From an uncultured Gammaproteobacteria bacterium (GTDB taxonomy: Bacteria; Pseudomonadota; Gammaproteobacteria; Steroidobacterales; Woeseiaceae), in contig CALBPI010000004.1 of NCBI GenBank assembly GCA_937899415.1, forward strand, positions 1 to 64,000: DNA of 64,000 nucleotides, given 5' to 3'. Position 1 is the stretch's first letter; each line of letters opens with the position of its first letter. Below are positions 4,170 through 30,316 of the stretch, in pieces. The notes below the pieces were generated by a model. The model was not told where the DNA came from and made no database searches. It saw only the letters and a program-made list of their open reading frames with translations. A program made the translations under genes and the position numbers.

Positions 4170-4261
4170 CCCGCAACCGCCGCGTGTCAGCTTGCCGCCG
4201 GTCGCATCGGTCGCCCGCTGTGGCACCACGCCAACCCCCTGCCAGACCGGAGCTGCCTGAC

Positions 4262-7200: not shown

Positions 7201-9772
7201 TGATGTCGACGTCACGATTCCCCGGGACACCTTCACGGTCATTACGGGGGTGTCGGGCAGCGGCAAGAGCACCATCGCCTTCGATATCCTCTTCAACGAA
7301 GGGCAGCGCCGCTATCTCGAATCGCTTAACGCCTACGCACGACAGTTCGTGCAACCCGCAAGCCGGCCCGACGTCGACGCCGTGCTGGGTATTCCGCCCA
7401 CGGTCGCCATCGAGCAGCGCACAAGCCGCGGTGGCCGCAAGAGCACGGTCGGCACGATGACCGAGGTGTACCACTTCCTGCGCCTGTTGTTCGTCAAGCT
7501 GGGCACGGCGCACTGCCCTGACTGCAACGTCCCGATCGAGCCGCAGACGCTCGAGCAGATCGCAGCACTCCTGCAAAAGCGCCACAAAGGCCGCGAGGTC
7601 ACGCTGCTCGCACCGCTCGTCGTCGGCCGTAAAGGCTATTACACGGACCTCGCCGCCTGGGCCGGTCGCAAGGGCTTTGAGGCCCTGCGTGTCGATGGTG
7701 AACGCACGCCCGTGGATCCCTGGCCGCGCCTCGATCGATTTGTCGAACACGACATCGAGCTGCCCGTGGCAACGCTGCGCGTCGATGCACGCAAAGAGCA
7801 GGCACTGAGGGCCGCCTTGTCGGACGCACTCGACTTTGGCAATGGCAATGTCATAGTGAACGTGGACGGCGACGACACCCTGTACTCAACCGCCCGGGCC
7901 TGCCCGAGCTGCGCCCGGAGCTTCCAGGAACTCGACCCGCGCCTGTTTTCTTACAACTCGCCGCGCGGCTGGTGCCCAAGCTGCTCGGGCACGGGCGTCT
8001 ACACCGACGAGGAAGAAGACGACGCCCAGTGGTGGCGCAGCACGGCCAACGAGTCGCAGGAGACCTGCGAAACCTGCGACGGTGCGCGCCTCAATGACGA
8101 GGCACTGGCGGTCACGTTCCAGGATCGCAACATCGCGAGCTACGCCGAGATGCCTGTCGCCGATGCCCTTGAGTGGGTCACAACACTCGATCTCGATGGC
8201 CGCGACGCAGAGGTGGCGCGCGACATCATCACGGAGCTCGACAGCAGGCTTGGCTTTCTCGACCGTGTGGGGCTTGGCTACCTGACGCTCTCTCGCAGCG
8301 CACCGACGCTGTCGGGCGGCGAGGCGCAGCGCATCCGGCTTGCGGCGCAGCTCGGCTCAAACCTTCGCGGTGTCTGCTACATCCTCGATGAGCCGACGAT
8401 CGGCCTGCACGCGCGCGACAATGCCAAGTTGCTCGGAACACTTCAGGCCTTGCAAGCCAGCGGCAACACCGTCGTCGTCGTGGAGCATGACGAGGACACG
8501 ATCCGCGGCGCGCAACACATCATCGACATCGGACCCGGCGCAGGCACGCGCGGTGGCCGCATCGTTGCCGAGGGCAACCTGCGCCGCATCGAGCGCGCGC
8601 CCGAATCGCTGACGGGCCGCATGCTGCGTGAGCCCCTGCAGCACCCGGTCATCGAGACACCACGAGACGTCAACCCGCGACGGCGCAACGCACCCGTGCT
8701 CGCGGTCAAACAGGCCACACTCAACAACCTGAAGCGCGTCTCTGCGCGCCTGCCCCTGGGCGCGCTTGTCGCCGTGACGGGCGTGTCGGGCAGCGGTAAG
8801 AGTTCGCTGATTCGTGGTGTCGTCGAAACCAACGTGGCCCGACTCGTGGCCGCGGGTCGGCGTCGTGGGCGCAAGCAGGCACCGCTCGTTGGATGCCAGG
8901 CACTTGAAGGCTGGGAATCGATCAGCCGCGTGCTGGAGGTTGACCAGACCCCGATCGGCAAGACGCCGCGCTCCTGCCCCGCGACCTACGTGGGTTTCTG
9001 GGATGACATCCGCAAGCTCTTCGCGCAGACGCCCGAGGCGCGCATGCGCGGCTACACGGCCAGCCGCTTCTCGTTCAATACCAAAGAGGGCCGCTGCCCC
9101 GAATGCGACGGCCAGGGCATGCGGCGCATCGAGATGAGCTTTATGCCCGATGTTCAGGTGCCTTGTGAGGCCTGCGGCGGCAAACGCTTCACGCCGGACA
9201 CGCTCGGGATTCGCTACCGAAACCAGAGCATCGGCGACATCCTGCAGATGGCGGTCTCGGACGCCGTCGAGTTTTTCGCAGCCCACCCGAAAATCCACCA
9301 CGCGCTCAAGTTGCTGGACGCCGTTGGCCTGGGTTATTTGACGCTGGGCCAGCCCAGTCCCACCTTGTCGGGCGGCGAAGCGCAGCGCATCAAGCTCGTC
9401 AGTGAACTGGCCAAGGCTCGACCGGACCCGGCGCGGCCCGTCATCGCAGCCGTCGACAACCCGCAGCACACCTTGTATGTGCTGGATGAGCCCACGATCG
9501 GCCTGCACATGGCGGACGTGGAGAAACTGATCCGCGTGCTGCACCGGCTTGTCGATGCGGGGCATTCCGTATTAATAATAGAACACAATCTCGACATCAT
9601 TGCCGAAGCCGACTGGATCGTCGACATGGGTCCCGAAGGTGGCGCGGCGGGAGGCCGCATCGTTGCACAAGGAAAACCGAAGCAACTCTATGAATTAGAT
9701 GATGTTTCTCATACAACGGTGGCCCTTGGGGCATTCTTCGACAGGAATCACAGAAACCTCGACACGCAGTAG
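4262..9772 (+). CDS. uvrA: Double-length UvrA excinuclease subunit (two fused UvrA copies)
   Basis: DNA-damage recognition ATPase of nucleotide excision repair. ATG 4262 is preferred over the upstream GTG at 4184 because [18 protein letters not shown] begins exactly at the family N-terminus, with CCGGAG just upstream; this gives 1836 residues, about twice the usual 940-970. Four Walker A motifs (GVSGSGKS at about residues 33, 629, 994, 1506) and four LSGGE signatures (about 479, 826, 1350, 1702) show two complete UvrA units with a junction near residue 955. Both halves keep Cys-rich zinc modules such as [11 protein letters not shown] and CPECDGQGM. Chlamydia is known to encode a comparable tandem UvrA. 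The last 200 bases are AT-richer, with three consecutive rare codons (TTA ATA ATA, near 9570). Confidence 0.95.
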
Positions 9773-13586: not shown

Positions 13587-13832
13587 TCAGTTACAGCCGC
13601 AGCCGCCGCCAACGACGCCCTCGGCGCCGCGTGCGCCCTCGCGCGACTCGAACACGTGGTACATGTACGACGTCGACACGGGATCGTGGTCGAGGAACAT
13701 GATCGGATCGGCCAGGCGATCGCGCTCATAGGGTTTGACCCAGGGCTCGATGTTCGAGCAGGCGGCTGAGGCTGTGACGAGACACAGCGCCAGCGCGACG
13801 CGGGCGATTCGTTGTGTGGTTTTGCGGTGCAT
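13587..13832 (-). CDS. DUF4266 small lipoprotein with GGGCGCN C-terminus
   Basis: Short lipoprotein of 81 residues. ATG 13832 is preceded by GAGGTAAGG. The signal ends in a lipobox (ASAAC), followed by NIEPWVKPYERDRLADPIM, the DUF4266 core, then HVFESREGARGAEG and a Gly/Cys tail GGGCGCN. The two terminal Cys with Gly spacers are a fixed feature of the family and may bind a metal or cofactor, but this is not known. It lies between a beta-barrel lipoprotein gene and the DUF3570 gene in what looks like one operon. Confidence 0.85.
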   Translation of the reverse strand: MHRKTTQRIARVALALCLVTASAACSNIEPWVKPYERDRLADPIMFLDHDPVSTSYMYHVFESREGARGAEGVVGGGCGCN

Positions 13833-13848
13833 GGACCTTACCTCGCAA

Positions 13849-14526
13849 TCAGAAGAAAAACGTGAAACCGACATGGCCGGTCAGGTTGTGTGCCGTCTTG
13901 CTCTCACCGAGCAGGTCCGTATCAAACGCGTGATCGCGGAAGTCGACACGGAGTGCGAAGACGTCGTTGAACAGCAGGCGGTAGCCGGCGCCAAAGTTGA
14001 TCGTGAACTGGTCGTCGCCGCCGAAGCGCGTACTGCCCAGCCCCGCGATGACGTAGAAGGACTGGTTAAAGGCGCGGCCGCGTCCGAAAAACGCCTCGCC
14101 CGGAAAGATGTTCCAGCCGATCGACGCGTTGTAGTAGGTGAACTCGCGCTCGTCGTCGTCGAGAATCTGTGCGGCACCACTGAGCAGCTCGAAGCTCGTC
14201 TCTTCCGTGTCGGTGCGACCGATAGCGCCCTCGACGAACAGCGCTTCATTCAGGTGGTAGGCAATCGTTGCGCCGTAGACTGCGTTAACGCCGAAGTCTT
14301 CGACACTCATGCCGCCCGCGTACACACCGATCTCGAAGTCCTCGGTGTCGATCCTCGGCTGCACAATCTCACGGCGCTCGACCTCGGGCTCGATAACCTG
14401 CTCGGGCGCCTCGGCGACCTGGGTGTCTTCACCCGGACCGAAGAACGGCAGTGACGAGCAGCCCGTCAGCGCCGGCATGACCAGTACGGCCACGCTCAGA
14501 AAAAGAAACCGAAGCCGACTTTCCAT
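13849..14526 (-). CDS. Outer-membrane beta-barrel domain lipoprotein
   Basis: About 225 residues. ATG 14526 begins MESRLRFLFLSVAVLV and a lipobox (LTGC). A short acidic linker is followed by an eight-strand-like barrel domain ending in TGHVGFTFFF, with the terminal Phe typical of barrel assembly signals. The upstream barrel gene ends at 14496, inside this gene, so the two overlap by 31 bases and are probably co-translated. Both barrels end in the same GFxFFF signature and look like diverged duplicates. No enzymatic motif is visible. Confidence 0.8.
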   Translation of the reverse strand: MESRLRFLFLSVAVLVMPALTGCSSLPFFGPGEDTQVAEAPEQVIEPEVERREIVQPRIDTEDFEIGVYAGGMSVEDFGVNAVYGATIAYHLNEALFVEGAIGRTDTEETSFELLSGAAQILDDDEREFTYYNASIGWNIFPGEAFFGRGRAFNQSFYVIAGLGSTRFGGDDQFTINFGAGYRLLFNDVFALRVDFRDHAFDTDLLGESKTAHNLTGHVGFTFFF

Positions 14527-15269
14527 TCTTCCACTTCCTCGTTTTCGTCGCGGCTCGTGAGGACCACGTAACTCTTGTATTCGGCGCGCAGCACGAAGCG
14601 GCGCGTGACATAGGCGCGAAACCCGCCGCCGACGAGCGCCACCTGGTCGGTGCGATCCTCCTGCGCCACGAGTGTCGACTTCGGCGACGTGCTGACAACG
14701 CCCGCGCCGATCGTAAAGTACGGCGACACGCGCCATTCAGGGAATGTCTCGTGTACAACATTGACGGTGCCGAGCCAGCCGTTCGAGAAGTTGCCCACGA
14801 GTTGCGAGCCCCAGATTTCCAACGAGAGGTTGCGGCTGATCGAGTAGCCGCCGTACACCGCCAGTGCATCGGAGCCCGCGAAATCGCCCGTCATGATCCC
14901 CGTTTCCCAGCGCGTCTGGAGAAACTCATCGCGGCCGATCTGCTCGATCGCCGTTCGTTCGCCGAACTCATCCAGCGTCAGCTCGAGCTGCACGATGTTG
15001 ACCCAACCCTCGCGCCCACGGTCGGTTCGCACTTTGAACCAGTCCGTCTTGCGACGAACGATTTGCACCGACTCGCCGCGTTCGACGACGTTGGTAATCG
15101 GGTATCCCTTGCCCGGCCCCGTGTGCATTTCGAGGAACGGGTCTGCGACCTCAACGGTGCGCAGCGGTTTGTCGTCGGAATGCGCACTGGGTGACCACGC
15201 CAACGCAGCGGCAATCAACGTGACTGCTGCAATCCATGTTGGTTTCAATGCGCTGAGGCGTGGGTTCAC
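14496..15269 (-). CDS. SH3-domain outer-membrane beta-barrel protein
   Basis: About 257 residues. GTG 15269 is preferred because AAGGAC lies seven bases upstream; an ATG at 15341 in the same frame has no such site. After a signal peptide, residues about 35-95 form a bacterial SH3 domain (MHTGPGKGYPITNVVERGE, then WFKVRTDRGREGWV), a fold that often contacts peptidoglycan. The rest is a barrel of alternating strands ending KVGFGFFF. It follows the PD40/cytochrome-like lipoprotein by 14 bases. The combination suggests a wall-contacting outer-membrane component of the same complex; this is inference. Confidence 0.8.
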   Translation of the reverse strand: MNPRLSALKPTWIAAVTLIAAALAWSPSAHSDDKPLRTVEVADPFLEMHTGPGKGYPITNVVERGESVQIVRRKTDWFKVRTDRGREGWVNIVQLELTLDEFGERTAIEQIGRDEFLQTRWETGIMTGDFAGSDALAVYGGYSISRNLSLEIWGSQLVGNFSNGWLGTVNVVHETFPEWRVSPYFTIGAGVVSTSPKSTLVAQEDRTDQVALVGGGFRAYVTRRFVLRAEYKSYVVLTSRDENEEVEEWKVGFGFFF

Positions 15270-15283
15270 GAGGCGTCCTTGGC

Positions 15284-17938
15284 TTAGTCCTGCGGTACCC
15301 GGAAGGGGTCGTTGTAATACTGAGCGCCAATGTCGAGCCACTCCGCGATCATGCGAAGCTCGCCTTCATTGAGGTAGCCCGCATGGGTACCGCCGGCGGC
15401 AAATCGACTAAAGAAGATGGGCGACGCATTGGCACCGGCGCCGTTCATGCTCGACTGCACGGCGATGGTGTCCAGGATCGGGTCACCGGTCACCGGATCA
15501 GTACCCACCTGGACCACGCGCGGCTGCAGCGCGCCCATGTTGAGCTCGACCTCGACGTCGTTGATGAGCAGTTCGCGGTACGCCTCAAACTGATCCTGTT
15601 CTTCAGGCGCCAGTCCGTCCGTCAGGTTGAGCTGGCCTGCGGGGACCTGCAATTGGTTGGCGGCGTCGCGATCGGTATGACAGGAGATACAGGTAAAGTC
15701 GCTGACTACATTACCCATGCCGTCCAGGGTGATGCGGGGCACCGACCACAACGGGTGAAGGTGGTCCTCGTAGTGAATGACCGTCCGGCAGCTCGCCGTC
15801 CACTCTTGTTCACAGGCCGGCGAAACGGGCCGCACAGACAAGAGATCTGAGTAGCGCAAATCGATGTCAGGATCGGCCTGCCGACCTGCGGCAACTTCGT
15901 CCGTCCACACATCGCGATAGACGACATCGACCGTCGGCTGCAAGGAAGAGCAGTTGTCCGTCGAGCAAGTTACGCGCGCGCGAACTTCGGCCATGGTTTC
16001 ACCGAGCGTATCGATGAACAGTGCCGGATCCGTATTGGGGAACGGCACACTGATGTTTTGGCCACCATCATGCGCGGTCGCGAAAGCATCGGCGCGACCA
16101 TGCGACAGACCGCTGTTGCCGTCGTGACACCCGTTGCAGGTCAGTTCCTCACCGGGACGGATCTGCATCCAGTTGTTGTGGCGCGCAGAGATACGGCGGC
16201 CATTGGCATCGGTAATCGACAGCGTAAAGGCAACGTCGGCAGGGACTTTGACCATAACGGAACCGTCGGGCTCGATCATGGTGTAACCGAGAATCTCCCG
16301 GAAGCCCTGACCGGCACCGACACCGAAGGCCGAGTTCGGCACTTCCACGAGCTCTTCATCGGGCATCGATACGGCTTTCTCGATACGCAGAAAGCGTGCG
16401 GGGCGAGCCGCGGCAAGCGTTTGCGCGGGGTCAGCGAGCACATCGATGCCACCCGGTGCTGTATCGACACCCATGAAGTCGTAGACGCTTCGAAGGTTGA
16501 GTACGCCGACACCTTCATCGGCAATACTCGTGTCGAGCAGAAAATCGTTGGCCCCGTTTAGCAGAACCAGCGGCACATCGCGTGGCTCAGCCACGACGAT
16601 GTCGGAGAAGATGACGCCTTCCTCGGGCGTGACGACCGGCGCCTGCGTTTCCTGCTCGCGGTCATACATCCAGATGCCGTAGAGCGGTGGCGCCTGAACC
16701 AGGTCGGGGTTGGCGAGGTTTTCCTCGGTGCAGGCAAGAATACGCAGCTCGACATCCTGGAGCCGGCATTGACTCCAGCTGACAAGCAGACGGTCGGTGC
16801 CGTCACGTAGCGGATAAACGGACCGGTAGCGGCCACCCGGCGACACCAGATCTGCTGCCGCAAGTACTTCATTGATGGTCGCGGGCGTCTGAGCGGGCCC
16901 CGCCATGCCGGCGTTATTGACGCTGGGCTGTGTGTTCTCGATGTAGGTATCGACATCAATGTCGACGAGCGCGCCACCTGTGGTCGGACCCGAGAACGGC
17001 TTCAGCAGGGAAATCAGCGTTCCGTCAGGCAATACCTGCGGCTGCATGAACTGTTCTTGCTGTCCGTCATTGTCGACGTCGTGGCTTTGAGCCCCGTACA
17101 GCAATTGCAAATCGCTGCCGTCAGGATTCATCTTGTACAGATTGAATTCGTTGGTGCCACCCACGTTGTCCCAGCGCGAGAACACAATCGTGCCGTCGTC
17201 GAGCACAATCGGGTTGAGCTCGTGGCTCTGGTTGAAGCCGATCTGCTGAATTTCGGTCCCATCTGTCTGCATCGTGTGCAGCAGGAACGCGGGTTCGTTT
17301 TCGTCGCCGTCGAGTGCCGGGAACTGGGGCTTACCCTCGTCAAGCAGAATGGCAACGGATTGGCGCTGACGCGTCGAGCTGAATACCAGTCGACCATCCG
17401 GCAGGAAGCGCGGCGCAATATCATGGCCCGCCTCAGCCGTGATGTCGGAGGCGATGACACGACGGAGCGTATCGGTAGGGATATCGTATTCCCAAATGTT
17501 CCAGGTGACCTGCTCTTCTTCGTCGGCATCAGGGTCGAACGGGTATCGCATCGCGAACGCCACTTTTGTGGCGTCGAATGACACGCTGACGTCGCGAATG
17601 TCTGCGAGCTCCATCGTGAACTCGCCCGTGAGATTCACATCGGGCGTACTCGGCGAAGCGCGGTCGCGGAAGAACAACTCCGCGCCCGGGTTGAAAGAGA
17701 GCACCTCTCGGATGTCCTCTTCCAGCAAGACGCCGTCGTCGTCCACGGGGATCGGTCGTTTGACATAAACAATCGGGAACTCGAGCGCGACCGGATCCGG
17801 CGCTTGCCCGGAGCCGAAGCCCACCGCATCGCCATCACCACCCGAATTACATCCCACCAGGACTGCGAGTGCTGACGCCACTGCTATCGAGCGGACACAG
17901 GTTGTAGTGCTTTTTGTCACCGCTACCGCTTTATCCAT
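15284..17938 (-). CDS. PD40 beta-propeller lipoprotein with two CxxCH motifs (HzsA-related)
   Basis: Large exported lipoprotein of about 884 residues. ATG 17938 leads to a signal with lipobox (LVGC). The N-terminal half is a propeller with WD40-like/PD40 repeats (DIAPRFLPDGRLVFSSTR, ELNPIVLDDGTIVFSRW, MQPQVLPDGTLISL). The C-terminal half has CNGCH (about residue 603) and CISCH (about 749), the c-type haem attachment motif, plus extra Cys pairs. The arrangement resembles proteins annotated as HzsA-related after the hydrazine synthase alpha subunit, but hydrazine synthesis is not implied. It is the first gene of the leftward cluster. It probably carries electrons or binds a substrate in the periplasm or at the outer membrane; substrate unknown. 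Confidence 0.8.
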   Translation of the reverse strand: MDKAVAVTKSTTTCVRSIAVASALAVLVGCNSGGDGDAVGFGSGQAPDPVALEFPIVYVKRPIPVDDDGVLLEEDIREVLSFNPGAELFFRDRASPSTPDVNLTGEFTMELADIRDVSVSFDATKVAFAMRYPFDPDADEEEQVTWNIWEYDIPTDTLRRVIASDITAEAGHDIAPRFLPDGRLVFSSTRQRQSVAILLDEGKPQFPALDGDENEPAFLLHTMQTDGTEIQQIGFNQSHELNPIVLDDGTIVFSRWDNVGGTNEFNLYKMNPDGSDLQLLYGAQSHDVDNDGQQEQFMQPQVLPDGTLISLLKPFSGPTTGGALVDIDVDTYIENTQPSVNNAGMAGPAQTPATINEVLAAADLVSPGGRYRSVYPLRDGTDRLLVSWSQCRLQDVELRILACTEENLANPDLVQAPPLYGIWMYDREQETQAPVVTPEEGVIFSDIVVAEPRDVPLVLLNGANDFLLDTSIADEGVGVLNLRSVYDFMGVDTAPGGIDVLADPAQTLAAARPARFLRIEKAVSMPDEELVEVPNSAFGVGAGQGFREILGYTMIEPDGSVMVKVPADVAFTLSITDANGRRISARHNNWMQIRPGEELTCNGCHDGNSGLSHGRADAFATAHDGGQNISVPFPNTDPALFIDTLGETMAEVRARVTCSTDNCSSLQPTVDVVYRDVWTDEVAAGRQADPDIDLRYSDLLSVRPVSPACEQEWTASCRTVIHYEDHLHPLWSVPRITLDGMGNVVSDFTCISCHTDRDAANQLQVPAGQLNLTDGLAPEEQDQFEAYRELLINDVEVELNMGALQPRVVQVGTDPVTGDPILDTIAVQSSMNGAGANASPIFFSRFAAGGTHAGYLNEGELRMIAEWLDIGAQYYNDPFRVPQD

Positions 17939-18832
17939 CACAACACCTCGATGCACGCATCGTGGCGTCGTCTCTGCGGCGGGTACTCCCGGGAGTTCCG
18001 CGCCGACCTATGCCAATTGAACGTAACGGCATGGTGACGATCGCCCGTCGTGCATTCTGTTAACAACTTCACAGTTCGTCTGCGGCACGGGTCGCCAGTC
18101 GTCGGAACTGTGCGCTCTACCCGACCGGGATTCTCATCACGCTGAAGGGCAGGCACGGCGCGAGTATAGAAATCAGAATCGGCGCTCGTAATGTCTCGAA
18201 ATGACGACAACGGGTTTGCGTCGCGACCGGTGCCACCGACACGGCGCACGACACCTGCGCAGAAAACCAAGACAACACAGGGTTTGTGGGCAAACACGCC
18301 TTTTCACCGTCGTTAAGGCACCTGCAAAAAGCCTGGACCGGTTTTTGTGAACTGGCGCACGCGGACCTCACCAAACCCCCGGTGCCAATGCGCGGCACCC
18401 CTGTCTCGTTCTCGCGACAAAAATTTTTTTCAACAAAAACAAATACTTGAGCGACCGGTGTTTACCTGCTGTCCCAAGCTCCCGACAAGCGCTTTACATA
18501 TCGTTGCAGGCTGCGACACCCCACAATTTTTGCTAAGTCGCTGAGTTGAAAAGCGCCGCTCAAGTTGTGACCCAAGAGCGGCAAGTGCTGGCTCGCCGAT
18601 TGCACCAACCCCCGTGTATCGAACCGCCAAGGGCTGCCCGTTGTGGGTGGCACGCCACACCAACTTCGGGATTGTGAGCGTGATCACTGCAAGTCTCGTG
18701 AAGTGCGATCAGACTTTTGCAGAGCTCAAAGAGGGACGCGATACAGCGCTTCTTGAAGCGTTGTTGAAGACAGAACCAATGAGGTCACAGCCGTAGTGCA
18801 GCAATACGGCAATCGGTCAAAGCAGGGTCAAG
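17939..18832. other. Long divergent intergenic region between the two cytochrome-like clusters
   Basis: About 894 bases with no convincing gene, lower in GC than its flanks in parts (an A/T-run near 18419-18443). It should hold the promoters of both divergent clusters. A CRP-like dyad is at 18673-18688. A short palindrome ACTCCCGGGAGT is at 17986-17997. The small open frames here lack ribosome sites and codon bias. The size is unusual for this otherwise compact window and leaves room for an unrecognised regulatory RNA. Confidence 0.6.
18673..18688. promoter_or_regulatory. CRP/FNR-family-like site
   Basis: TGTGA-GCGTGA-TCACT differs from the CRP consensus TGTGA-N6-TCACA in one base. It lies about 145 bases upstream of the mono-haem protein start. 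The match is based on the motif alone. Confidence 0.3.
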
Positions 18833-20002
18833 ATGAAGACATCGACGATTACAAAAACAGCACGGCTTGGGGTCGCAGGATTGACGCTCGCGTTAACTGT
18901 GGGCAGCGCGTTTGCCGGTCCGCGTGAGCAGGCCAAGCGCATTCACGACCGTCTTGCGGGTGTTCCCCCAACGGCGTCCGTACTCGACGCCATGGAAGCT
19001 CCAATCGCGGGCGGCAATGCCATCGCGGCAGCCGAGACGGCGATGGAGAACAGCGCGTTCTACAGCGTGACGCTCAAGAACTGGGCGACGCCGTGGACGA
19101 ACCGCGATGGCGATATTTTCGCCCCGCTCAACGACTACACAGCCACAGTGATCGGGATGGTCAGAGATGACGTGCCCTTTAATGAAGTGCTGTTCGGCGA
19201 CCATCTCTACGTCGGCGCCAACGGCCTTGGGGTCCCGGGCTACTCGATGACCAACAATGATCACTACGAGGCGCTCGAACAGAACGCCATCGATCTCAAA
19301 GACAATCTCGTCGCGACCACGCAATCGGCTCAGACCGACTTGCCGGCCACGGCGACTGCGGGCGTCATGACCACGCGCGCCGCTGCAGAGGCCTTCTTTA
19401 TCGCGGGCACCAACCGCGCGATGCTGCGTTTCACCCTCATGAACCACCTGTGCCGCGACCTCGAGCAGGTCGCTGACGTGACCCGCCCGCCGGATCGCAT
19501 CCGCCAGGACGTCACGCGCAGCCCGGGCGGTGACAGCCGTCTGTTCCTGAGCAACTGCATCAGCTGCCACAGCGGGATGGATCCGCTGGCGCAGGCGTTT
19601 GCGTACTACAACTACAACGAGGAAACGGGTCGGATCGAATACACCCAGGGTGCGGTCCATCCGAAGTACTTCAACAACGACACGAACTTCGCATTCGGCT
19701 TCCGTACGCCCGACGACGCCTGGTCCAACTACTGGCGTGATGGGCGTAACGCATTGCTGGGCTGGGACAACAGCCAGCCGGGCTCCGGCGCCGGCGCGAA
19801 GTCTCTGGGCATGGAACTGGCAGGCAGCCAGGCCTTCGCCCAGTGCCAGGTCGAAAAAGTATTCGAGAACGTGTGCCTGCGTGAGCCCGGCGATGCCGCG
19901 GATCGCGCGCAGGTCGACGCGATGACGGCGTCGTTCGTAGGCAGCAACTATCGGTTGAAGCAGACCTTCGCCGAAGCAGCCACCTACTGCATGGGCGACT
20001 GA
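18833..20002 (+). CDS. Secreted mono-haem c-type cytochrome-like protein
   Basis: Exported protein of 389 residues with a signal peptide (MKTSTITKTARLGVAGLTLALTVGSAFA). One CxxCH motif, NCISCHSGMDP (about residue 240), marks a c-type haem site; the following GMDP and the layout recall the DUF1585/1588-type haem modules of environmental bacteria. Further Cys (NHLCRDL, FAQCQVEKVFENVC, YCMGD) may form disulfides. It is the first gene of a rightward three-gene set, with 10 bases to the next gene. Periplasmic electron transfer is likely; the partner and substrate are unknown. Confidence 0.75.
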   Translation: MKTSTITKTARLGVAGLTLALTVGSAFAGPREQAKRIHDRLAGVPPTASVLDAMEAPIAGGNAIAAAETAMENSAFYSVTLKNWATPWTNRDGDIFAPLNDYTATVIGMVRDDVPFNEVLFGDHLYVGANGLGVPGYSMTNNDHYEALEQNAIDLKDNLVATTQSAQTDLPATATAGVMTTRAAAEAFFIAGTNRAMLRFTLMNHLCRDLEQVADVTRPPDRIRQDVTRSPGGDSRLFLSNCISCHSGMDPLAQAFAYYNYNEETGRIEYTQGAVHPKYFNNDTNFAFGFRTPDDAWSNYWRDGRNALLGWDNSQPGSGAGAKSLGMELAGSQAFAQCQVEKVFENVCLREPGDAADRAQVDAMTASFVGSNYRLKQTFAEAATYCMGD

Positions 20003-20012
20003 GGACACGATC

Positions 20013-22478
20013 ATGACGACAAAAACTAAAGTTCATACCGTGGCCCGTCTTGGCGGCCTCCTGGCTGTTGTCGCTTTGATCAGCGCCTGCTCCGGTGGTG
20101 GTGCCGAAACCCAGGTCAACCCGGTGACGTCCGTTCCCGACACCACGGGTTACAACGGCCCGGCGCCGCTCACGGCAGACGTCCAGGCATTCCAGATCAA
20201 CCTCTGGAGCAACGTTCAATCCGAAGCCGGCTGTGGCGCTTGCCACGGCGCTGGCGGACAGGCCCCGACCTTCGCACGTGTTGACGACATCAACCTCGCC
20301 TACGACGCGGCCAACACGGCCGTTAATCTGGGCGCTCCCGGTGAATCGTTGCTCGTAACCAAAGTCGCCGGTGGCCACAACTGCTGGTCCGGCAGTGACG
20401 CCGTCTGCGGTGACCTCATGGAAACCTGGATTCAGGGTTGGGCAGGTGAGCTCGTCGCCGGCGGTGGCCGCACGATCGAGCTGGCCGCACCGCCGATTTA
20501 CGATCCGGGCGCGAGCCGTAATTTCCCGACCGACCCCGGTCTGTTCGCGAGCACGGTGTACCCGATCACGCAGACCTATTGCTCTGGCTGCCATCAGTCG
20601 GGCGCACAGTTTGCGCAGGCCCCGTTCCTGGCGGAAAACGACGTAGAAGTCGCTTATGAGGCCGCGCGACCCAAGATTCTGCTTAACGACCCGCAGAACT
20701 CGCGTCTCGTGCTGCGTCTGCAAAACGAATTCCACAACTGCTGGAGCGGCAACTGCGCCGCCGACGCCGCTGCCATGCAGACGGCCATCGAGGCTATGGC
20801 CAATGCCATTACGCCCACGGCAGTTGATCCGAGCCTGACCTTCAGTAAAGCGCTGACGCTGCTCGACGGGATCGTCGCCAGTGGCGGCAGCCGTTACGAA
20901 GCCAACGCCATTGCAACTTACGAGTTCAAGACGGGCGAAGGCCTGATCGCCTACGACACCAGTGGTGTGTCACCCGCGCTCGACCTCACCATGTCGGGTG
21001 ATGTCGGCTGGGTCGGCGGCTGGGGTATCGAAATCCGCAACGGTAAAGCCCAGGGCCGCACCGCGGACAGCAAGAAGCTGCACGACCTCATCAAATCGAC
21101 GGGCGAATACGCCATCGAGGCCTGGGTCGTGCCGGCCAACGTGGTCCAGGAAGAGGCTCGCATCGTGAGCTACTCCGCCGGACCGACGGCACGCAACTTC
21201 ACGCTGGGGCAGACGCTCTACGACTACACTTTCGCCAACCGCAGTGACGTCACCGACGGCAACGGCATGCCTGCGCTGCAGACGCCCGCCGCTGATGAAG
21301 TGCTGCAGGCGACATTGCAGCACGTGGTCGCGAACTACGACCCGGTCAACGGCCGCAGCCTGTGGGTTAACGGTCAGCTGATCGATATCAACGACGAAGT
21401 CGGCGGTGGCAGCATTGCCGACTGGGATGACACCTTCGCGTTCGTCCTCGGTAACGAGGTGTCCAGCGACGGCCTGTTCGCCGGCACGTTCCGCTACGTG
21501 TCGATCCACAACCGCGTGCTGACTGAGGGGCAGATCGCGCAGAACTTTGATGCCGGTGTCGGTGAGAAGTTCTACCTGCTGTTCAGCGTCTCGCATCTGG
21601 TAGACGTGCCCGAAGCCTATGTGCTGTTCGAGGTGGCGCAGTTCGACAACTACAGCTACCTGTTCAACGCACCGCACTTCATCTCGCTCGACACGTCGGC
21701 GACCTGGGACGGTATTCCGATCCAGGGTATCCGCGTAGGCGTGAACGGCACTGAGCCGCCGGTGGGCCAGGCCTTCCGCACGGTCAGCACGAGTCTTGAC
21801 AGCACCTTGCTCGAAGAGCTGGGTCAGCCGCTGTCGCCGTACGGCGCTGTGTTCCAGCAGGAGCAGGGTCCTGAGGGTGACGAGTTCTTCCTGACCTTCG
21901 ACATCCTCGGTGACAACGTCAACGTCCGTACAGACCCCGTACCGCTCGCCTCTGGCGAACCCGCGGATCTGCCTGAAGCCGCAGACATCGGTGTCCGCAT
22001 CTTTGACGAGATTGCAGCAACGATGTCGCAGGCCACGGGCGTATCTCGGGCACACCCCGAGGTGATGCTCACCTACGACGCCGTGCGTCAGCAGATGCCG
22101 TCAAGCCCGCTCTTCGGTGGCTTCCTGGCCTCACAGCAGGTCGGTATCTCTCAGCTTGCGGTTGAGTACTGCAACGCGCTTGTTCAGGACACGGCACTGC
22201 GTTCGAGCTTCTTCCCGGGTATGGACTTCAACGCCCCAGCGAACAGCGCGTTTGCCACACAAGCGGGCCGCGACCTGGTTATCGATCCCGTGGTAGATGC
22301 CGTATCAGGCATCAACCTGGCATCGGAGCCGGCACGCGTGGTCATGGAAAACGAGCTCAACGGGCTGATTACGCGACTGACCGCGTGTGGCGCCAGCTGC
22401 GGCCCGGATCAAACAGAAACCGTCGGCACGGCCGTCTGCGCGGCAGCGCTGGGCAGCGCCTCCATGCTGGTGCAGTAA
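20013..22478 (+). CDS. LamG-domain lipoprotein with two cytochrome c-like modules
   Basis: Lipoprotein of 821 residues (lipobox ISAC near residue 28). The first 270 residues contain two similar modules: CGACHGAGG (about residue 73) followed by HNCWSG and a later Cys, and CSGCHQSGA (about 190) followed by HNCWSGNC. Each pairs a CxxCH haem motif with a repeated HNCWSG element. Residues about 300-510 look like a LamG/concanavalin-like carbohydrate- or protein-binding sandwich (IEAWVVPANVV, VNGRSLWVNGQLI, FRYVSIHNRVL). The C-terminal 300 residues are unfamiliar. It is co-transcribed with the mono-haem protein and the Tat-type protein; an outer-surface redox role is inference. Confidence 0.78.
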   Translation: MTTKTKVHTVARLGGLLAVVALISACSGGGAETQVNPVTSVPDTTGYNGPAPLTADVQAFQINLWSNVQSEAGCGACHGAGGQAPTFARVDDINLAYDAANTAVNLGAPGESLLVTKVAGGHNCWSGSDAVCGDLMETWIQGWAGELVAGGGRTIELAAPPIYDPGASRNFPTDPGLFASTVYPITQTYCSGCHQSGAQFAQAPFLAENDVEVAYEAARPKILLNDPQNSRLVLRLQNEFHNCWSGNCAADAAAMQTAIEAMANAITPTAVDPSLTFSKALTLLDGIVASGGSRYEANAIATYEFKTGEGLIAYDTSGVSPALDLTMSGDVGWVGGWGIEIRNGKAQGRTADSKKLHDLIKSTGEYAIEAWVVPANVVQEEARIVSYSAGPTARNFTLGQTLYDYTFANRSDVTDGNGMPALQTPAADEVLQATLQHVVANYDPVNGRSLWVNGQLIDINDEVGGGSIADWDDTFAFVLGNEVSSDGLFAGTFRYVSIHNRVLTEGQIAQNFDAGVGEKFYLLFSVSHLVDVPEAYVLFEVAQFDNYSYLFNAPHFISLDTSATWDGIPIQGIRVGVNGTEPPVGQAFRTVSTSLDSTLLEELGQPLSPYGAVFQQEQGPEGDEFFLTFDILGDNVNVRTDPVPLASGEPADLPEAADIGVRIFDEIAATMSQATGVSRAHPEVMLTYDAVRQQMPSSPLFGGFLASQQVGISQLAVEYCNALVQDTALRSSFFPGMDFNAPANSAFATQAGRDLVIDPVVDAVSGINLASEPARVVMENELNGLITRLTACGASCGPDQTETVGTAVCAAALGSASMLVQ

Positions 22479-22502
22479 GACTTTTAGACAGGAACCGAAA
22501 CC

Positions 22503-24083
22503 ATGGCAAAGAAAAAAGAGAATCTGCACCCGGATACTCCGATTCTTCACCCGGACCACAAGCGGCCGAGTACTCGCCGCGAGTTTGTCGCCACGGGCCT
22601 GATGGCAGGCACATCGACGCTCATGTCGGGCGGCCTGTTCAGCCTGTTCGCGAATCCGATGGAAGCGCGAGCGGCACTCTCGCCCGATCTGCAACCGCTG
22701 CGTGCGGGCTGCGGTCTCGAGCTGGCTGGCGCGGGCAAGATCCCGTTCGTGTGCTTCGACCTTGCGGGCGGCGCCAACATGGCAGGGTCCAACGTGCTGG
22801 TCGGTGGCCCGGGCGGTCAGATGGATTTCCTGTCAACGGCGGGCTACAACAAGCTCGGCCTGCCCGGTGATCAAACGCCTGATGTAGTCAACCCCGATAC
22901 GGGCACCAATGACTTCATCAACACGGACCTCGGTCTCGCGTTCCATTCGGACTCGGCATTCCTGCGCGGAATCCTTGAGCGCGCGTCTCCGGCAACGATC
23001 GCCAACACCAACGGCGCGATCCTCGTGGCACGTTCCGAGAACGACACGGGCAACAACCCGCACAACCCCATGTACGGCATTGCCCGCACGGGTGCGCGTG
23101 GTGAACTGCTCGACCTTATTGGTTCGCGCACGTCGGAGTCGGGTGGCAACTCGATGGCGCCGGCCGCGATGATCGATCCGGCTCTGCGGCCTTCCAAGGT
23201 CGACCGTCCTGGCGACGTCACGGGTCTCGTCGACACGGGCAAGCTCGTCGGCCTGCTCTCGCAGGAAGACGCCGTAGCCGTGCTCGAGTCCGTTTACCGC
23301 CTCAGTGACCAGAAACTGGGCCAGGTCGACACCAAGATCGACGCTGACGCCGTGGTTAAGGACCTCGTCTCCTGCGGTTACCTGAAGTCGGCCGATCTCG
23401 CCGACCGCTTCGGTGATCCGTCGCAGCTCAACCCGTCACTGGATGCAGACCTCGTCGGCCCCGCAGGCATCTTCTCGCAGGTCGAATACGACGATGACCG
23501 CGAATTCCGCAAAACGGCTTCCGTCATGAAGCTTGTCGCGAACGGCTACGCCGGCGCCGGCACCATCACAATGGGTGGCTACGATTACCACGGTGGTCGT
23601 CGTGCTCGCGGCGAGGTACGTGACCTGCGTGCCGGTCGTTGCATGGGTGCCGCACTCGAGTACGCAGCGCGCCGCGGCGTGCCGCTCTTCATGTACGTGT
23701 TCTCGGACGGCTCGCTGTCGAGTAACGGCATGATCGACGACACCGAGGACGGTCGCGGCAAGCTCGAATGGGCATCGGACAACCAGAGTACGGCTGCCTC
23801 GTTCATCCTGGTCTACAACCCGAACGGTCGACCGCAGCTGTTCACGGGTGACAGCTTAGCTCCCGAAAACCATCAACAGATCGGACACTTCCGGCCCGAT
23901 GGCTCTGGCGAGACGAGCTCAAGCCCGATCGCAAACAACGTCAACCTGCTCGTGGAAGCTGTGGTGCTCAACTACCTGGCGATCCACGGCGAACAGGCGA
24001 ACTTCGAAGTCCTGTTCCCGAACCACGGCCTGGGTAACGTACAGCTGCGAGACAGCCTGACCGCCTTCAATCCGATTATCTGA
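22503..24083 (+). CDS. Tat-exported DUF1501-like protein
   Basis: 526 residues with a twin-arginine type signal (STRREFVATGLMAG, residues 23-36). The body has IPFVCFDLAGGANMAGS, SENDTGNNPHNPMYGI, TITMGGYDYHGG and LFPNHGLGNV, which resemble the alkaline-phosphatase-like DUF1501 family that partners haem proteins in planctomycetes. The assignment is tentative because I cannot align it here. It follows the LamG lipoprotein by 24 bases with AGGAACC as ribosome site and ends before a strong terminator, closing the operon. Tat export hints at a cofactor or folding in the cytoplasm. Confidence 0.7.
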   Translation: MAKKKENLHPDTPILHPDHKRPSTRREFVATGLMAGTSTLMSGGLFSLFANPMEARAALSPDLQPLRAGCGLELAGAGKIPFVCFDLAGGANMAGSNVLVGGPGGQMDFLSTAGYNKLGLPGDQTPDVVNPDTGTNDFINTDLGLAFHSDSAFLRGILERASPATIANTNGAILVARSENDTGNNPHNPMYGIARTGARGELLDLIGSRTSESGGNSMAPAAMIDPALRPSKVDRPGDVTGLVDTGKLVGLLSQEDAVAVLESVYRLSDQKLGQVDTKIDADAVVKDLVSCGYLKSADLADRFGDPSQLNPSLDADLVGPAGIFSQVEYDDDREFRKTASVMKLVANGYAGAGTITMGGYDYHGGRRARGEVRDLRAGRCMGAALEYAARRGVPLFMYVFSDGSLSSNGMIDDTEDGRGKLEWASDNQSTAASFILVYNPNGRPQLFTGDSLAPENHQQIGHFRPDGSGETSSSPIANNVNLLVEAVVLNYLAIHGEQANFEVLFPNHGLGNVQLRDSLTAFNPII

Positions 24084-24134: not shown

Positions 24135-24170
24135 GTGCCGGTGCCGTAATGGCACCGGCTCTTTTTTTTA
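24135..24170 (+). terminator. Rho-independent terminator closing the cytochrome-like operon
   Basis: GCCGGTGCC (24137-24145) pairs with GGCACCGGC (24151-24159), followed by eight T (24162-24169). It also separates the convergent SRPBCC gene, whose stop codon lies at the T-run. A second small hairpin TGACGCC-t-GGCGTCA sits at the stop of the Tat-type gene. Confidence 0.9.
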
Positions 24171-25826: not shown

Positions 25827-27212
25827 TTATTCGAGGTTGTAGTCGAGGTAGGCGTAAACGCGCTGCGCGACCGCCTGGCCGCGAACGAGCCGCGGTTCGT
25901 ATTCCCACTCGGAGATGGCGCGCAATGCGGACCGGTCGAACAGCGAGCCTGAGCTGCTTTCAACCACTTCGATCTCGCGGGTTTTGCCGTCGGTGCCGAC
26001 CGTGAACTCGACCTTCACGCGGCCATTAACCCCGCGCTGCAGAGCGCGACGCGGGTAGATGGGTGCGACGGCCTTGGTGCGGCGCAGCGTCGCGGCCGAG
26101 ACCACCTCGGACGTTGCGGCTGCGATGAACGCCTGGTCGACCGCGGCGAGCAGTTCCGTCTTCTCGGCGGTATCCGATGTGACGAGCTTGCCGTACTCGC
26201 GGTAGAGCCGGTCTGCGGTGCCCGGATCGGCCGCGACGGAAGCGTTGCGAATACCCGAGGCGAGCGCGGCAGCGACTTCGCCTTGCAGCGATTGACGTGT
26301 CGACGCGTTTGAAACGTTGTCCAGCAGGGCGACGGCGCCACTGCGACCACGGAAGTTCCCGGAAGCCAGTGCTTCACGCACGGCGATCTCACCGGCGTCC
26401 TGTTGCGGCGCGGCCGGCGGCGGTGTCGGCGTTGATGTGGCGGTCGCCGGCGCTGTGCGCGCGGCAGCCCTGGCTGCGGCCTGTTGCTGCTGTTGGACGC
26501 GCTGCCGCTCCGCAGCGGCGGCGCGTTCGGCGGCAGCCTGTGCCGCGACACGCTGCGCATCGATCCGATCACGGACGTCGGCGCGCAGCGTCAGCAACTC
26601 ACCAGCCTGCGTGCGCGGCAGCGCGGCCAGCGTATCGAGAATGGCGTTCGCCTGCGTCTCATCGCCTGCATCCGCCGCAGTCAGCGCCAGCGACGACTGT
26701 GTCTGACGGAAGTCGACGAGACGCTGTTCAAAACGCCCAATGCTGTCGTGTTCGAAGCCTGAATTGTTGAGCTGCTCGACAACATAATTGGCGCGCGACC
26801 AGTCCTCGCCGCCCAGCGCGGCATCGACCAGGCTGCCCACACGGTTCACCACGGCATCCACTTCGGCCACGACCGTGTCATCGGCCTGCGCCTGCTCGAG
26901 GAACAGCGCGTAGTAGTACAGCGCATTACTGCCCGCAGGCTCCGTGAGCATGCCGGCATCAGCCGCGAGGCGTGCGCGGGACAAGAGCTCACCGTTGGGC
27001 GTTTCCGCCGCTACAACAGCCTGCACCTCGGCCTGCTCGGGCGTGGGTTCCGCGGCCACCGCGGGCGCACTCTCGACGACTTCGCCGTCCGAACCCAGGA
27101 AAAACCAGGCCGCCATCGCAGCAATCACGACGAGCGCACCGATCAGGATCGGTGTATCGAATGATTTCTTCTCCGCCGGTACGGGGGCGTCAAGAACGGC
27201 CTCGTCGCTCAT
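25827..27212 (-). CDS. TonB-like energy transducer with helical/TPR-like periplasmic region
   Basis: 461 residues. One membrane segment (about 20-41) leaves the rest in the periplasm. Residues about 70-220 are helical and TPR-like, 220-275 are Gln/Ala-rich with a Pro/Thr stretch, and the C-terminus (about 375-460) is a TonB C-terminal domain (IYPRRALQRGVNGRVKVEF, then RSALRAISEWEYEPRLV). It follows the response regulator by three bases, so kinase, regulator and this gene form an operon. ExbB and ExbD are not in the window. The domain may work in envelope signalling rather than in iron uptake; this is inference. Confidence 0.82.
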   Translation of the reverse strand: MSDEAVLDAPVPAEKKSFDTPILIGALVVIAAMAAWFFLGSDGEVVESAPAVAAEPTPEQAEVQAVVAAETPNGELLSRARLAADAGMLTEPAGSNALYYYALFLEQAQADDTVVAEVDAVVNRVGSLVDAALGGEDWSRANYVVEQLNNSGFEHDSIGRFEQRLVDFRQTQSSLALTAADAGDETQANAILDTLAALPRTQAGELLTLRADVRDRIDAQRVAAQAAAERAAAAERQRVQQQQQAAARAAARTAPATATSTPTPPPAAPQQDAGEIAVREALASGNFRGRSGAVALLDNVSNASTRQSLQGEVAAALASGIRNASVAADPGTADRLYREYGKLVTSDTAEKTELLAAVDQAFIAAATSEVVSAATLRRTKAVAPIYPRRALQRGVNGRVKVEFTVGTDGKTREIEVVESSSGSLFDRSALRAISEWEYEPRLVRGQAVAQRVYAYLDYNLE

Positions 27213-27215
27213 GGC

Positions 27216-28418
27216 CTAGTCCTTTTTGCGTTTCCAGATGCTGCCGATCGAGCGAATCCGCTTGAACAGCTGGTCCACGGCACCCGACTGCTCGGGTTCG
27301 TCCTGTGTTTGCTCCACGGCCATACGCGGAACCAGGCTGGGATCAGCACGCATCTGCAGGTGGCGCAAGGCGCCGCCGTTGACGTTTTGCATGAGCCTGT
27401 CGTGGTTGACGGGCTTAGCCATGTAGCGGAAGACCTGGCCGTGGTTGATCAGCGAGATCATTTCCGCTGCGTCGCGGTCATCACTGACCACGATCGCGAT
27501 GAGTTCGGGCAGGTGCTGCTTGAACTTGTTCAGCACCTTGCGCAATACGCCGCCTTCACTGGCCACCTCGGAGATCAGTACGCCGGCCTTTTTGGCCGAG
27601 ATGAGCTCGAGCACCTTGAGCAGGCGATTGGCGTGGTAGAGCTTGTAGCGGCCCTGCATCGCACCTTCGACTTCCTTGAAGAAATCGTCAGACAGCGTGA
27701 ACACGACGACGCCCACACTTTCCATGTCGCGGAACGACTCGGAGTTTCGAATCTGGACTGAGTCTCCAGACAACACGACCTGTTCGCCCTGCGCCTCGAG
27801 GTCTTCTTCCTCGGGCGTCTCCTGCACCTCTGGCTGCGAAGCCAGCATCGCGGGCACGAGCGAGGGTGATTTGCGGCGCGAGATCGGCCGGGTCTGCGTA
27901 GCCAGCGAGTCCGCGGGCGCATCGTCGTCGCCGTCTGCGTCACCCGTCGGCGGGGCCTGGACCGTGGGCGAGTCAGGGGTCAGTACAGGCGCGGCCGAGG
28001 CCTGCACGGCCTGGTCGATCGTTGCGCGCAGGTTGTCGGGCGGGCACGGCTTCGACAGGAAGCGGAACACCTCACCAACGTTGATCGAGCCTTCGATGGC
28101 ATCAAGGTCGGCATATCCCGTGAGCAGGATGCGCATGGTGCGCGGTGCCTGTTCACGCACCGCACCCAGCACTTCGACGCCTTCCATTTCAGGCATGCGC
28201 TGGTCAGCCACGATGACGTCCGCGTCGTGTTCGACGCAAAACTTCACAGCCTCCTCGCCCGACGTGGTCAGATAGAGTTCATAGTCACGCCGAAACAGGG
28301 CCCGCATCGCATTAAGCACGCGCTTTTCGTCATCGACGAAAACGACGCGTGGTTTGCGGTCCAAAACTGTTGCTGCGCCCTGGTCAGTACTCATGGCTTG
28401 TGCTTGGTTCGCGCCCAT
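27216..28418 (-). CDS. Response regulator with a receiver and a pseudo-receiver domain
   Basis: 400 residues. The first domain (about 22-140) is a complete receiver: Asp29/Asp30, phospho-acceptor Asp72 in VADQRMP, Thr100 and Lys123. A Pro/Asp-rich linker follows. The second domain (about 235-350) has receiver-like spacing (GVVVFTLSDDF, VLISEVAS, ELIAIVVSDD, FRYMAKPV), but the acceptor Asp is replaced in LISEVAS, so it should not be phosphorylated. No DNA-binding or enzymatic output domain is seen. ATG 28418 has AGGCAAC upstream; ATG 28394 is an alternative. It lies 11 bases after the kinase gene. Confidence 0.88.
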   Translation of the reverse strand: MGANQAQAMSTDQGAATVLDRKPRVVFVDDEKRVLNAMRALFRRDYELYLTTSGEEAVKFCVEHDADVIVADQRMPEMEGVEVLGAVREQAPRTMRILLTGYADLDAIEGSINVGEVFRFLSKPCPPDNLRATIDQAVQASAAPVLTPDSPTVQAPPTGDADGDDDAPADSLATQTRPISRRKSPSLVPAMLASQPEVQETPEEEDLEAQGEQVVLSGDSVQIRNSESFRDMESVGVVVFTLSDDFFKEVEGAMQGRYKLYHANRLLKVLELISAKKAGVLISEVASEGGVLRKVLNKFKQHLPELIAIVVSDDRDAAEMISLINHGQVFRYMAKPVNHDRLMQNVNGGALRHLQMRADPSLVPRMAVEQTQDEPEQSGAVDQLFKRIRSIGSIWKRKKD

Positions 28419-28429
28419 TGTTGCCTGGC

Positions 28430-30316
28430 TCAGGCGGATTTTTCCGCGGGAAAGTCGAGTTCATTCTCTTCGTCCAGCACCAGACCCTCGATCCGCAATG
28501 TGTCGCCTGTCATGGCTTCAAGCTCGGCGAGCTCTCGGGCCATGTCACTCATTGGCGCAGATTCCGTACGCGGGAGGCTCAAAGTGAACGTCGAACCCTC
28601 GCCGAGCGTGGACTGAATGTCCAGCCGCCCGTCGTGTGAGTCGACAATCTTCTGGCTGATGGAAAGGCCCAGGCCCGTGCCCTTGCCCACTTCCTTGGTC
28701 GTGAAGAAGGGGTCGCGGATCTTGGCGAGTGTTGTGTCGTCCATGCCGTGGCCCGAATCCTTGACGCTTACGTGCACGTAATCGTCGTCGGCCCAGGAGC
28801 TCAGCGTCAGCGTGCCGTCGCGCTCCATGGCATCGGAGGCATTCTTGATGAGGTTCAGGAACACCTGGTTGATCTGGCTCGGCGAACAGGTCACGAGCGG
28901 CAGCTCGGCGAAGTTCTTCTCGATCTTGATACCGCCCTTGAGCGCGTTCTTGGCAATGACGAGCGTCTTCTCGAGGCCCTCGTTGAGGTCCGCCTGCGCC
29001 GTCGCGGCGCGGTCGAGACGGCTGAAGTCCTTGAGCGACTGCGCCATCTCGGAAAGCTGCTCGAGACCTTCGACGCTGTCTTGGAGCAGGTCGTTGCACT
29101 CGTCGAGGTCGTCGCGCAGACCATCCTTGTTCAGTGCTGCATCGAGACGCTTAAGCTGGGCCACGAATTTCTGCTTGTCGGAACCACCCTCGCGGACCAC
29201 GCGAAGCATGTCGTCGGCAATGTCGGCGAAGTGATTGAAGCTGCCCAGGCGCTCACGAATCGTCGTGGTGTTGCTGAGCAGGTACCAGAGCGGCGTGTTG
29301 ATCTCGTGACTGATGCCGGCCACGAGCTCGCCCAGCGACGACATCTTCTCGGCCTGTACGAGCTGGGCCTGAGACTCACGAAGCTCTTCGAGCGCCGCGC
29401 TGAGTTCTCGGGTACGTTCGTTCACACGCTCTTCGAGCGAGACGTTGAACTGCTCGAGCTCAATGTTGGCGTCGGCCAGCGTCGCGTTACTTTGACGCAG
29501 GCGCAGACCAATAAGCGCAATACCCAGGATCAGCAGAACACACACGGCCGCGAGCAGCAGGCGCGCCCGGTCGGCACGCGAGGTGACGGCCGCGTTCATC
29601 GAGGCGACGGCGCCGTAGAGGTCCTGGGCACGACTGGCGTAGGTGCTGCCCGTCAGTTTGCTGAGTGCCGTCTCAGCCGTGCCCCGCTCGGCCAGCAGCA
29701 CACTGGCGGCGTCGAGGACGCCCGACAGGGCACGCGGCTGACGACCGGCGTCGATCTCGGCCGTAAACGCGTCGAGACGGCGCTGCAGCTCTTCAACGGG
29801 AACCGTCGATTCGCCCGTGGCAAAGTCCAGCAGTTCGGCGGTCAGGCCAAACAAAACCTGCGAGGAGGCTTCGTTACCCCGGTCACGCAGCAGGCGCACG
29901 GCCGCTGGGCCATCATCGCGCAGCACGGTCGCCGCTGCGGCGATCCGGTCTTGTGCGTCTGAGAACTCCGTCACACTCGTGAGCATGCTGTTCAGCGTCG
30001 AGATGTAAGCGGAGGCCGACGCCATGACGTCGGCATTGCGAATGTTCTGGGCGGGTGCACGCAGAGTCTCGGTGCCGCTCTTCAGGCGGCTCGACAGCGT
30101 AGCCACAGTTTCGGGCACGGTCTGGGCCTGGCGGGCCGTCACACTCAGCGTATCCGAGAGGGTTTCGTAGTCGCGCTGGCCCTGGCGCAGGGCAGAGACG
30201 TAGTTGCTATAGTCGATGTAGAACTGGGCACTGACGGATCGCGACTCGCGAACGAGAATCGCGAGCAGGACGACAATTGAAGCCGCAGTCAGGGCGATAA
30301 GTATCTTCTTCAGCAT
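28430..30316 (-). CDS. Membrane-bound sensor histidine kinase
   Basis: 628 residues. Two membrane segments (about 5-22 and 253-274) enclose a long all-helical periplasmic sensor region with repeated hydrophobic heptads, of the DAHL-like type. A coiled-coil (ELEQFNVSLEERVNERTRELS) leads to the dimerisation box GISHEINTPLWYL (phospho-His about residue 333) and a full HATPase domain (NLIKNASDAM, DSGHGMDD, FFTTKEVGKGTGLGLSI). The signal sensed is unknown. It is the first gene of an operon with a two-domain response regulator and a TonB-like protein. Confidence 0.92.
   Translation of the reverse strand: MLKKILIALTAASIVVLLAILVRESRSVSAQFYIDYSNYVSALRQGQRDYETLSDTLSVTARQAQTVPETVATLSSRLKSGTETLRAPAQNIRNADVMASASAYISTLNSMLTSVTEFSDAQDRIAAAATVLRDDGPAAVRLLRDRGNEASSQVLFGLTAELLDFATGESTVPVEELQRRLDAFTAEIDAGRQPRALSGVLDAASVLLAERGTAETALSKLTGSTYASRAQDLYGAVASMNAAVTSRADRARLLLAAVCVLLILGIALIGLRLRQSNATLADANIELEQFNVSLEERVNERTRELSAALEELRESQAQLVQAEKMSSLGELVAGISHEINTPLWYLLSNTTTIRERLGSFNHFADIADDMLRVVREGGSDKQKFVAQLKRLDAALNKDGLRDDLDECNDLLQDSVEGLEQLSEMAQSLKDFSRLDRAATAQADLNEGLEKTLVIAKNALKGGIKIEKNFAELPLVTCSPSQINQVFLNLIKNASDAMERDGTLTLSSWADDDYVHVSVKDSGHGMDDTTLAKIRDPFFTTKEVGKGTGLGLSISQKIVDSHDGRLDIQSTLGEGSTFTLSLPRTESAPMSDMARELAELEAMTGDTLRIEGLVLDEENELDFPAEKSA

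Follow-up and report, generated by a model that had tools for sequence, protein, structure and literature searches.

A cytochrome, LamG and Tat-signal gene trio, very probably part of a conserved set of redox and motor genes in Gammaproteobacteria

The three genes at 18833-24083 of the window, i.e., of the whole 64,000-nt stretch of DNA that was analysed, very probably (roughly 85%) belong to a conserved gene set of Gammaproteobacteria that combines redox proteins with a motor. The conserved unit extends past the coordinates of the trio and takes in a divergent operon at 17938-12421. Consistent with a previous sequence-only reading, which had described three tightly linked genes ending at a terminator, g1, g2 and g3 are three tandem ORFs on the + strand, separated by gaps of 10 nt (g1-g2) and 24 nt (g2-g3), and g3 is followed by a terminator (10-bp stem at 24137-24159 with eight G-C pairs, then a T tail) and by a convergent gene. 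The features of the trio and its flanks are:

17939..18832, no strand, intergenic region separating the two divergent operons
18833..20002, + strand, g1, secreted protein of 389 aa with one haem, whose C-terminal half resembles DUF1588/DUF1585 but stays below the cut-off in the window copy
19556..19570, + strand, g1 haem c motif CISCH (C242-H246), invariant in 30 aligned orthologues
20013..22478, + strand, g2, dihaem LamG lipoprotein, 821 aa
20232..20246, + strand, g2 haem motif 1, CGACH (C74-H78), invariant in 30 orthologues
20580..20594, + strand, g2 haem motif 2, CSGCH (C190-H194), invariant in 30 orthologues
21069..21539, + strand, g2 Laminin_G_3 (LamG/ConA-like) domain, residues 353-509, by Pfam
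22503..24083, + strand, g3, Tat-signal protein, 526 aa, alkaline-phosphatase-superfamily fold according to its model, with no Pfam or NCBIfam family
24137..24169, + strand, intrinsic terminator, stem 24137-24159 plus T tail

The description of g1 as a secreted protein with one CxxCH and of g2 as a LamG lipoprotein with two was borne out, since the single CxxCH of g1 is invariant in all 30 aligned g1 orthologues, both CxxCH of g2 and its lipobox Cys26 are invariant across 30 aligned g2 orthologues, and the Laminin_G_3 match (PF13385) of g2 reaches 56.3 bits, above the cut-off of 27.6. The haem region of g1 resembles DUF1588 (CxxCHxxMDPlaxAF...), and hhalign aligns g1 collinearly with the C-terminal half of DUF1592-1588-1585 proteins (E 0.004 but a probability of 8%). 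Against PSD2/DUF1585 (PF07624) the window copy scores 19.7 bits with a cut-off of 25.8, which three g1 orthologues attain (25.8-34.5 bits). Searches of the g1 sequence against solved structures returned cytochrome and LIM-domain matches at chance level only, and its model (pLDDT 76.3) gave just two Foldseek matches, both at E ≥ 8, which does not place the fold.

For g3, the Tat signal was confirmed by the twin arginine R25-R26, which is invariant in 32 orthologues, while the likeness to DUF1501 claimed in the earlier reading holds for the modelled fold and not for the sequence profile. The HMM search of the 526-residue protein against DUF1501 (PF07394), which that reading had proposed, gave no match at E ≤ 1, nor did any other Pfam family. 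Profile-profile comparison likewise did not recognise g3 as a DUF1501 protein, and for DUF1552 (PF07586) the profile-profile comparison, with a set of two sequences, aligned the signal region only, at a probability of 3%. Moreover, the genome of the window (G000) holds four clear DUF1501 genes elsewhere (L001, L002, L003 and L004), each preceded by an ORF that we take to be DUF1800, and a genome-wide search picks those four, not g3. By sequence, g3 has no relative among solved structures. In a Foldseek search with its model (pLDDT 69.5, pTM 0.72), all top rows were alkaline-phosphatase-superfamily proteins, none of which reached E ≤ 0.001, and VIA-align likewise gave a best row from this superfamily (Z 12.7, rmsd 4.4, 247 aligned residues). 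As modelled, g3 has the alkaline-phosphatase-superfamily fold, to which DUF1501 also belongs, and by eye its GGYDYH resembles the GG[WF]D[TH]H of DUF1501.

Across the intergenic region, the divergent operon encodes five proteins, for the second to fourth of which the start codons were taken from reading the sequence:

15284..17938, - strand, HzsA-like lipoprotein with PD40 beta-propeller, HZS_alpha middle domain, two invariant CxxCH and lipobox Cys30
14496..15269, - strand, SH3 domain plus small outer-membrane beta-barrel, by profile matches
13849..14526, - strand, outer-membrane beta-barrel with lipobox, TIGR04565 OMP_myx_plus
13587..13832, - strand, DUF4266 small lipoprotein ending GGGCGCN (CxC), by profile, 79.5 bits
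12421..13566, - strand, DUF3570 outer-membrane protein, by profile, 119.1 bits, with the variant flavinylation-type motif D72-M-I-T-S-A-S78

The HzsA-like protein matches the PF18582 domain at 53.7 bits, above the cut-off of 26.6, but reaches only 55.8 of the 800 bits required by the hydrazine synthase alpha equivalog (NF052339), and on this score we reject a role of this gene in hydrazine synthesis. Compared with hydrazine synthase alpha itself (PDB 5c2v), it matches the middle domain and, over short collinear stretches, also the propeller and the C-terminal region, yet by the equivalog model it is not such a subunit. The DUF3570 and DUF4266 pair has been described together with ApbE and a thioredoxin-like protein, and ApbE-dependent flavinylation was demonstrated for one DUF3570, by Meheust et al. 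(PMC8238504). The DUF3570 of the window lacks the canonical ApbE target [S/T]GA[S/T], and the copies from trio-bearing loci share a conserved variant, [S/T]SAS, in the alignment column that holds SGAS in the trio-less loci L160-L162. We dropped the idea that flavinylation has been lost, since the conserved variant occupies the SGAS column, and judging from this position the TSAS of the window protein may be flavinylated.

Investigating the distribution of the trio, we scanned GTDB genomes with g3, which gave at least 546 relatives; the 80 best of these were retained and are gammaproteobacterial, with 65-72% identity in g3. In these first 80 loci, g1 and g2 lie upstream of g3 wherever the contig reaches that far, and the divergent HzsA-like, SH3-barrel and outer-membrane protein genes are present wherever the flank allows. 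DUF4266 and DUF3570 usually come after them in trio loci, and DUF4266 was present in many of the 80, though most of these loci end near it. That the three genes might not co-occur elsewhere had been named as a possible refutation of their grouping; they co-occur in many gammaproteobacterial loci, and the trio with its divergent hzs/OMP operon recurs across many gammaproteobacterial families. In more divergent genomes (g3 identity 42-53%), several loci hold g1-g2-g3 alone, the left operon being absent from L131-L135, L137 and L138, and in such trio-only loci g2 often has a single haem. In a sample of 398 genomes from the phylum, in which the share of other classes is unspecified, all eight g3 matches were gammaproteobacterial. 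Cultured carriers of the trio include Shewanella algicola, Aliiglaciecola, Microbulbifer and Alteromonas, so gene-removal tests look feasible in named hosts.

Furthermore, clustering of neighbouring genes combined with Pfam identified thioredoxin, ApbE, TPR proteins, ExbB, ExbD and a 180-aa protein without family, which we used as a marker, in the vicinity of the trio elsewhere, and in many relatives the trio continues into such a block with a TonB at its end. G335 shows the full arrangement in one line (g1-g2-g3-ApbE-marker-TPR-TPR-TPR lipoprotein-small protein-ExbB-ExbD-ExbD-TonB), where the AgmX/PglI tail of TonB scores 71.5 bits with a cut-off of 40, and in a Lamellibrachia symbiont (L027) the block, minus ApbE, follows g3 through both ExbD genes. 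In a draw of 369 genomes from the class, 51 had a g3 match at E ≤ 0.001, of which 50 were counted as positive after exclusion of one weak 75-residue match, and the marker was present in 48 of these 50 compared with 33 of the 319 g3-negative genomes (Fisher 1e-35, phylogeny not corrected for). Because the genomes share ancestry, such figures overstate both adjacency and co-occurrence.

In the genome of the window, the block lies on other contigs: C78 carries ApbE (258.3 bits), thioredoxin (AhpC-TSA, 111 bits), the marker, two TPR genes and ExbB, and the end of C1 carries TonB with the AgmX/PglI tail as well as an ExbD that is truncated where the contig stops, a second ExbD not being separately seen. 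The ends of C78 and C1 have a short stretch in common, which suggests that they abut. At the start of L154 on C78, the first ~100 bases, before the stretch shared with C1, look unrelated and may have arisen during assembly as an artefact of the contig edge.

The modules are separable, as seen from other arrangements. G126 and G157, which lack g3, carry ApbE, hzs, both outer-membrane protein genes, thioredoxin, DUF3570 and the motor block in one same-strand run (L160, L161), in G017 (L159) the outer-membrane protein, thioredoxin and DUF3570 genes are divergent from the motor block and hzs is absent, and in L163, L165 and L166 no redox genes lie close to the motor block. The trio thus has the appearance of an addition to a pairing of redox and motor genes. 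Two further small proteins were noticed in these loci, a probable lipoprotein of ~170 aa with cysteines and no CxxCH between the HzsA-like and SH3-barrel genes (L160:5674-6174, L161:6295-6807), and a conserved protein of ~95 aa directly before ExbB in the motor block (L157:11781-12065), which has no Pfam or NCBIfam match.

At the outer membrane, the trio and its neighbours probably work as a single redox system. The gene content, the conserved haem, lipobox and CxC residues, the synteny and the co-occurrence are read directly from the sequences, and we infer a joint action of the proteins, an exchange of electrons between the haem part and the flavin/thiol part, and a motor that drives this same process. 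In this proposal, the trio would contribute the cytochromes and the surface contact to an envelope system that is conserved in Gammaproteobacteria and served by a machine driven by the proton motive force. One ExbB and two ExbD would form a proton-channel motor in the inner membrane and, together with the AgmX/PglI-tailed TonB and the periplasmic TPR proteins, a Glt-like trans-envelope machine. Thioredoxin, the CxC lipoprotein DUF4266 and DUF3570, flavinylated by ApbE-dependent attachment of FMN, would constitute a thiol-flavin relay at the outer membrane, prolonged by the HzsA-like dihaem lipoprotein, g1 with one haem and g2 with two, and the LamG domain of g2 may hold a glycan or matrix ligand. 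After folding in the cytoplasm, g3, with its modelled alkaline-phosphatase-type fold, would be exported by Tat, and it probably serves either as a structural partner of g1/g2 or as a substrate binder. Candidate substrates are metals, redox-active small molecules and polymers. That the Agl/Glt-type motor is coupled, mechanically or functionally, to the haem-flavin-thiol electron relay is a more tentative suggestion; if true, the whole would be a machine for redox-linked transport or surface remodelling that differs from the gliding, spore-coat, Tol and TonB systems described so far.

Among known systems, the motor block resembles in gene make-up the Agl/Glt core complex, a relative of the myxobacterial gliding machinery, with one ExbB, two ExbD, an AgmX/PglI-tailed TonB, several TPR proteins and an extra gene in one cluster. 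In Luciano 2011 (PMC3169522), the gammaproteobacterial core complex comprises GltC/D/E/G, AglR/Q/S and one extra gene, clustered and with a function not known, and is reported also for Geobacter; Wartel et al. (PMC3858216) regard it as a possible basal transport machinery. We found this gene content (ExbB, two ExbD, TonB with a GltG-type tail, TPR) in L157 and L155, and, counting one ExbD, on C78 and C1 of the window genome. The equivalog models were matched in part only and their cut-offs missed (GltG 54 of 650 bits, GltE 43.8 of 225 bits). Unlike the described complex, the present block is linked to cytochromes, thioredoxin, DUF4266, DUF3570 and ApbE; cytochrome, ApbE and thioredoxin are not mentioned in the main text of Luciano 2011.

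The DUF3570/DUF4266/thioredoxin/ApbE clusters of Meheust 2021 (PMC8238504) share with the present loci the four gene types, the CxC tail of DUF4266 and an ApbE target-like motif in DUF3570. They differ in that the trio-bearing loci show [S/T]SAS rather than [S/T]GA[S/T] and that ApbE and thioredoxin of the window genome sit on another contig, and the main text of that paper does not mention an association with an Exb/Glt motor, HzsA-like or LamG proteins. In the open-access literature searched, we found no paper joining the Agl/Glt core complex with the DUF3570 flavinylation module. The link provides the orphan gammaproteobacterial core complex with a concrete and testable set of partners, namely cytochromes, flavinylation module and thiol carriers, and the DUF3570 module with a possible motor.

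The sequence-only reading had compared the trio with planctomycete cytochrome-DUF1501 pairs and named a polymer-associated oxidation as one possibility. With regard to planctomycete PSCyt/PSD proteins (DUF1592-1588-1585) and their DUF1552/DUF1501 partners, the analogy finds some support in the DUF1588-like haem motif of g1, in its possibly DUF1585-like tail, for which three orthologues reach the PSD2 cut-off and the window copy stays below it, and in the modelled fold of g3; by profile, g3 matches neither DUF1501 nor DUF1552. A self-contained cytochrome operon that oxidises or binds a polymer, as in planctomycete PSCyt/LamG/DUF1501 pairings and with functionally separate neighbours, would agree with the LamG domain, the weak PSD2/PSCyt3 signal in g1, the existence of trio-only loci and the description of PSCyt genes near pfam13385 proteins (PMC5615132). 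We consider it unlikely, because it overlooks a context of HzsA-like cytochrome, DUF3570/DUF4266/thioredoxin/ApbE and Glt-like ExbBD/TonB genes. Linkage of the trio with the motor block and with the divergent HzsA/OMP/DUF4266/DUF3570 operon recurs, and no glycan-degrading enzyme was found among the conserved neighbours examined.

Similarly improbable is a reductive acquisition of metal, in which the flavin/thiol/haem relay would act at the outer membrane to reduce ferric or cupric complexes, with ExbBD/TonB energising uptake. The presence of ExbB, ExbD and TonB is compatible with it, as is the VIT1 iron transporter that sometimes occurs in DUF3570 clusters (PMC8238504), but the TonB tail is of the AgmX/PglI (gliding) type and not of the siderophore type, and the conserved neighbours examined include no TonB-dependent receptor or metal transporter. 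Least likely is that g3 would be an active phosphatase, sulfatase or phosphodiesterase with the cytochromes as accessories, as its modelled fold might suggest, since a fold by itself is no proof of catalysis and, read by eye from the sequence, the DH pair of DUF1501 is DN (D426-N427) and GGxD is GGAN in g3.

Besides the envelope system favoured here, two other parts of the window deserve mention. Near the trio, a TonB_C protein, a response regulator and a histidine kinase are encoded in tandem at 25827-30316 on the - strand, a group not kept beside the trio in the loci of relatives that were compared. In addition, an ORF of 1862 aa at 4184-9772 (+ strand) matches ABC_tran, UvrA_interaction and the UvrA DNA-binding domain, and, to judge by its size, may be a UvrA-type protein in tandem or fused form.
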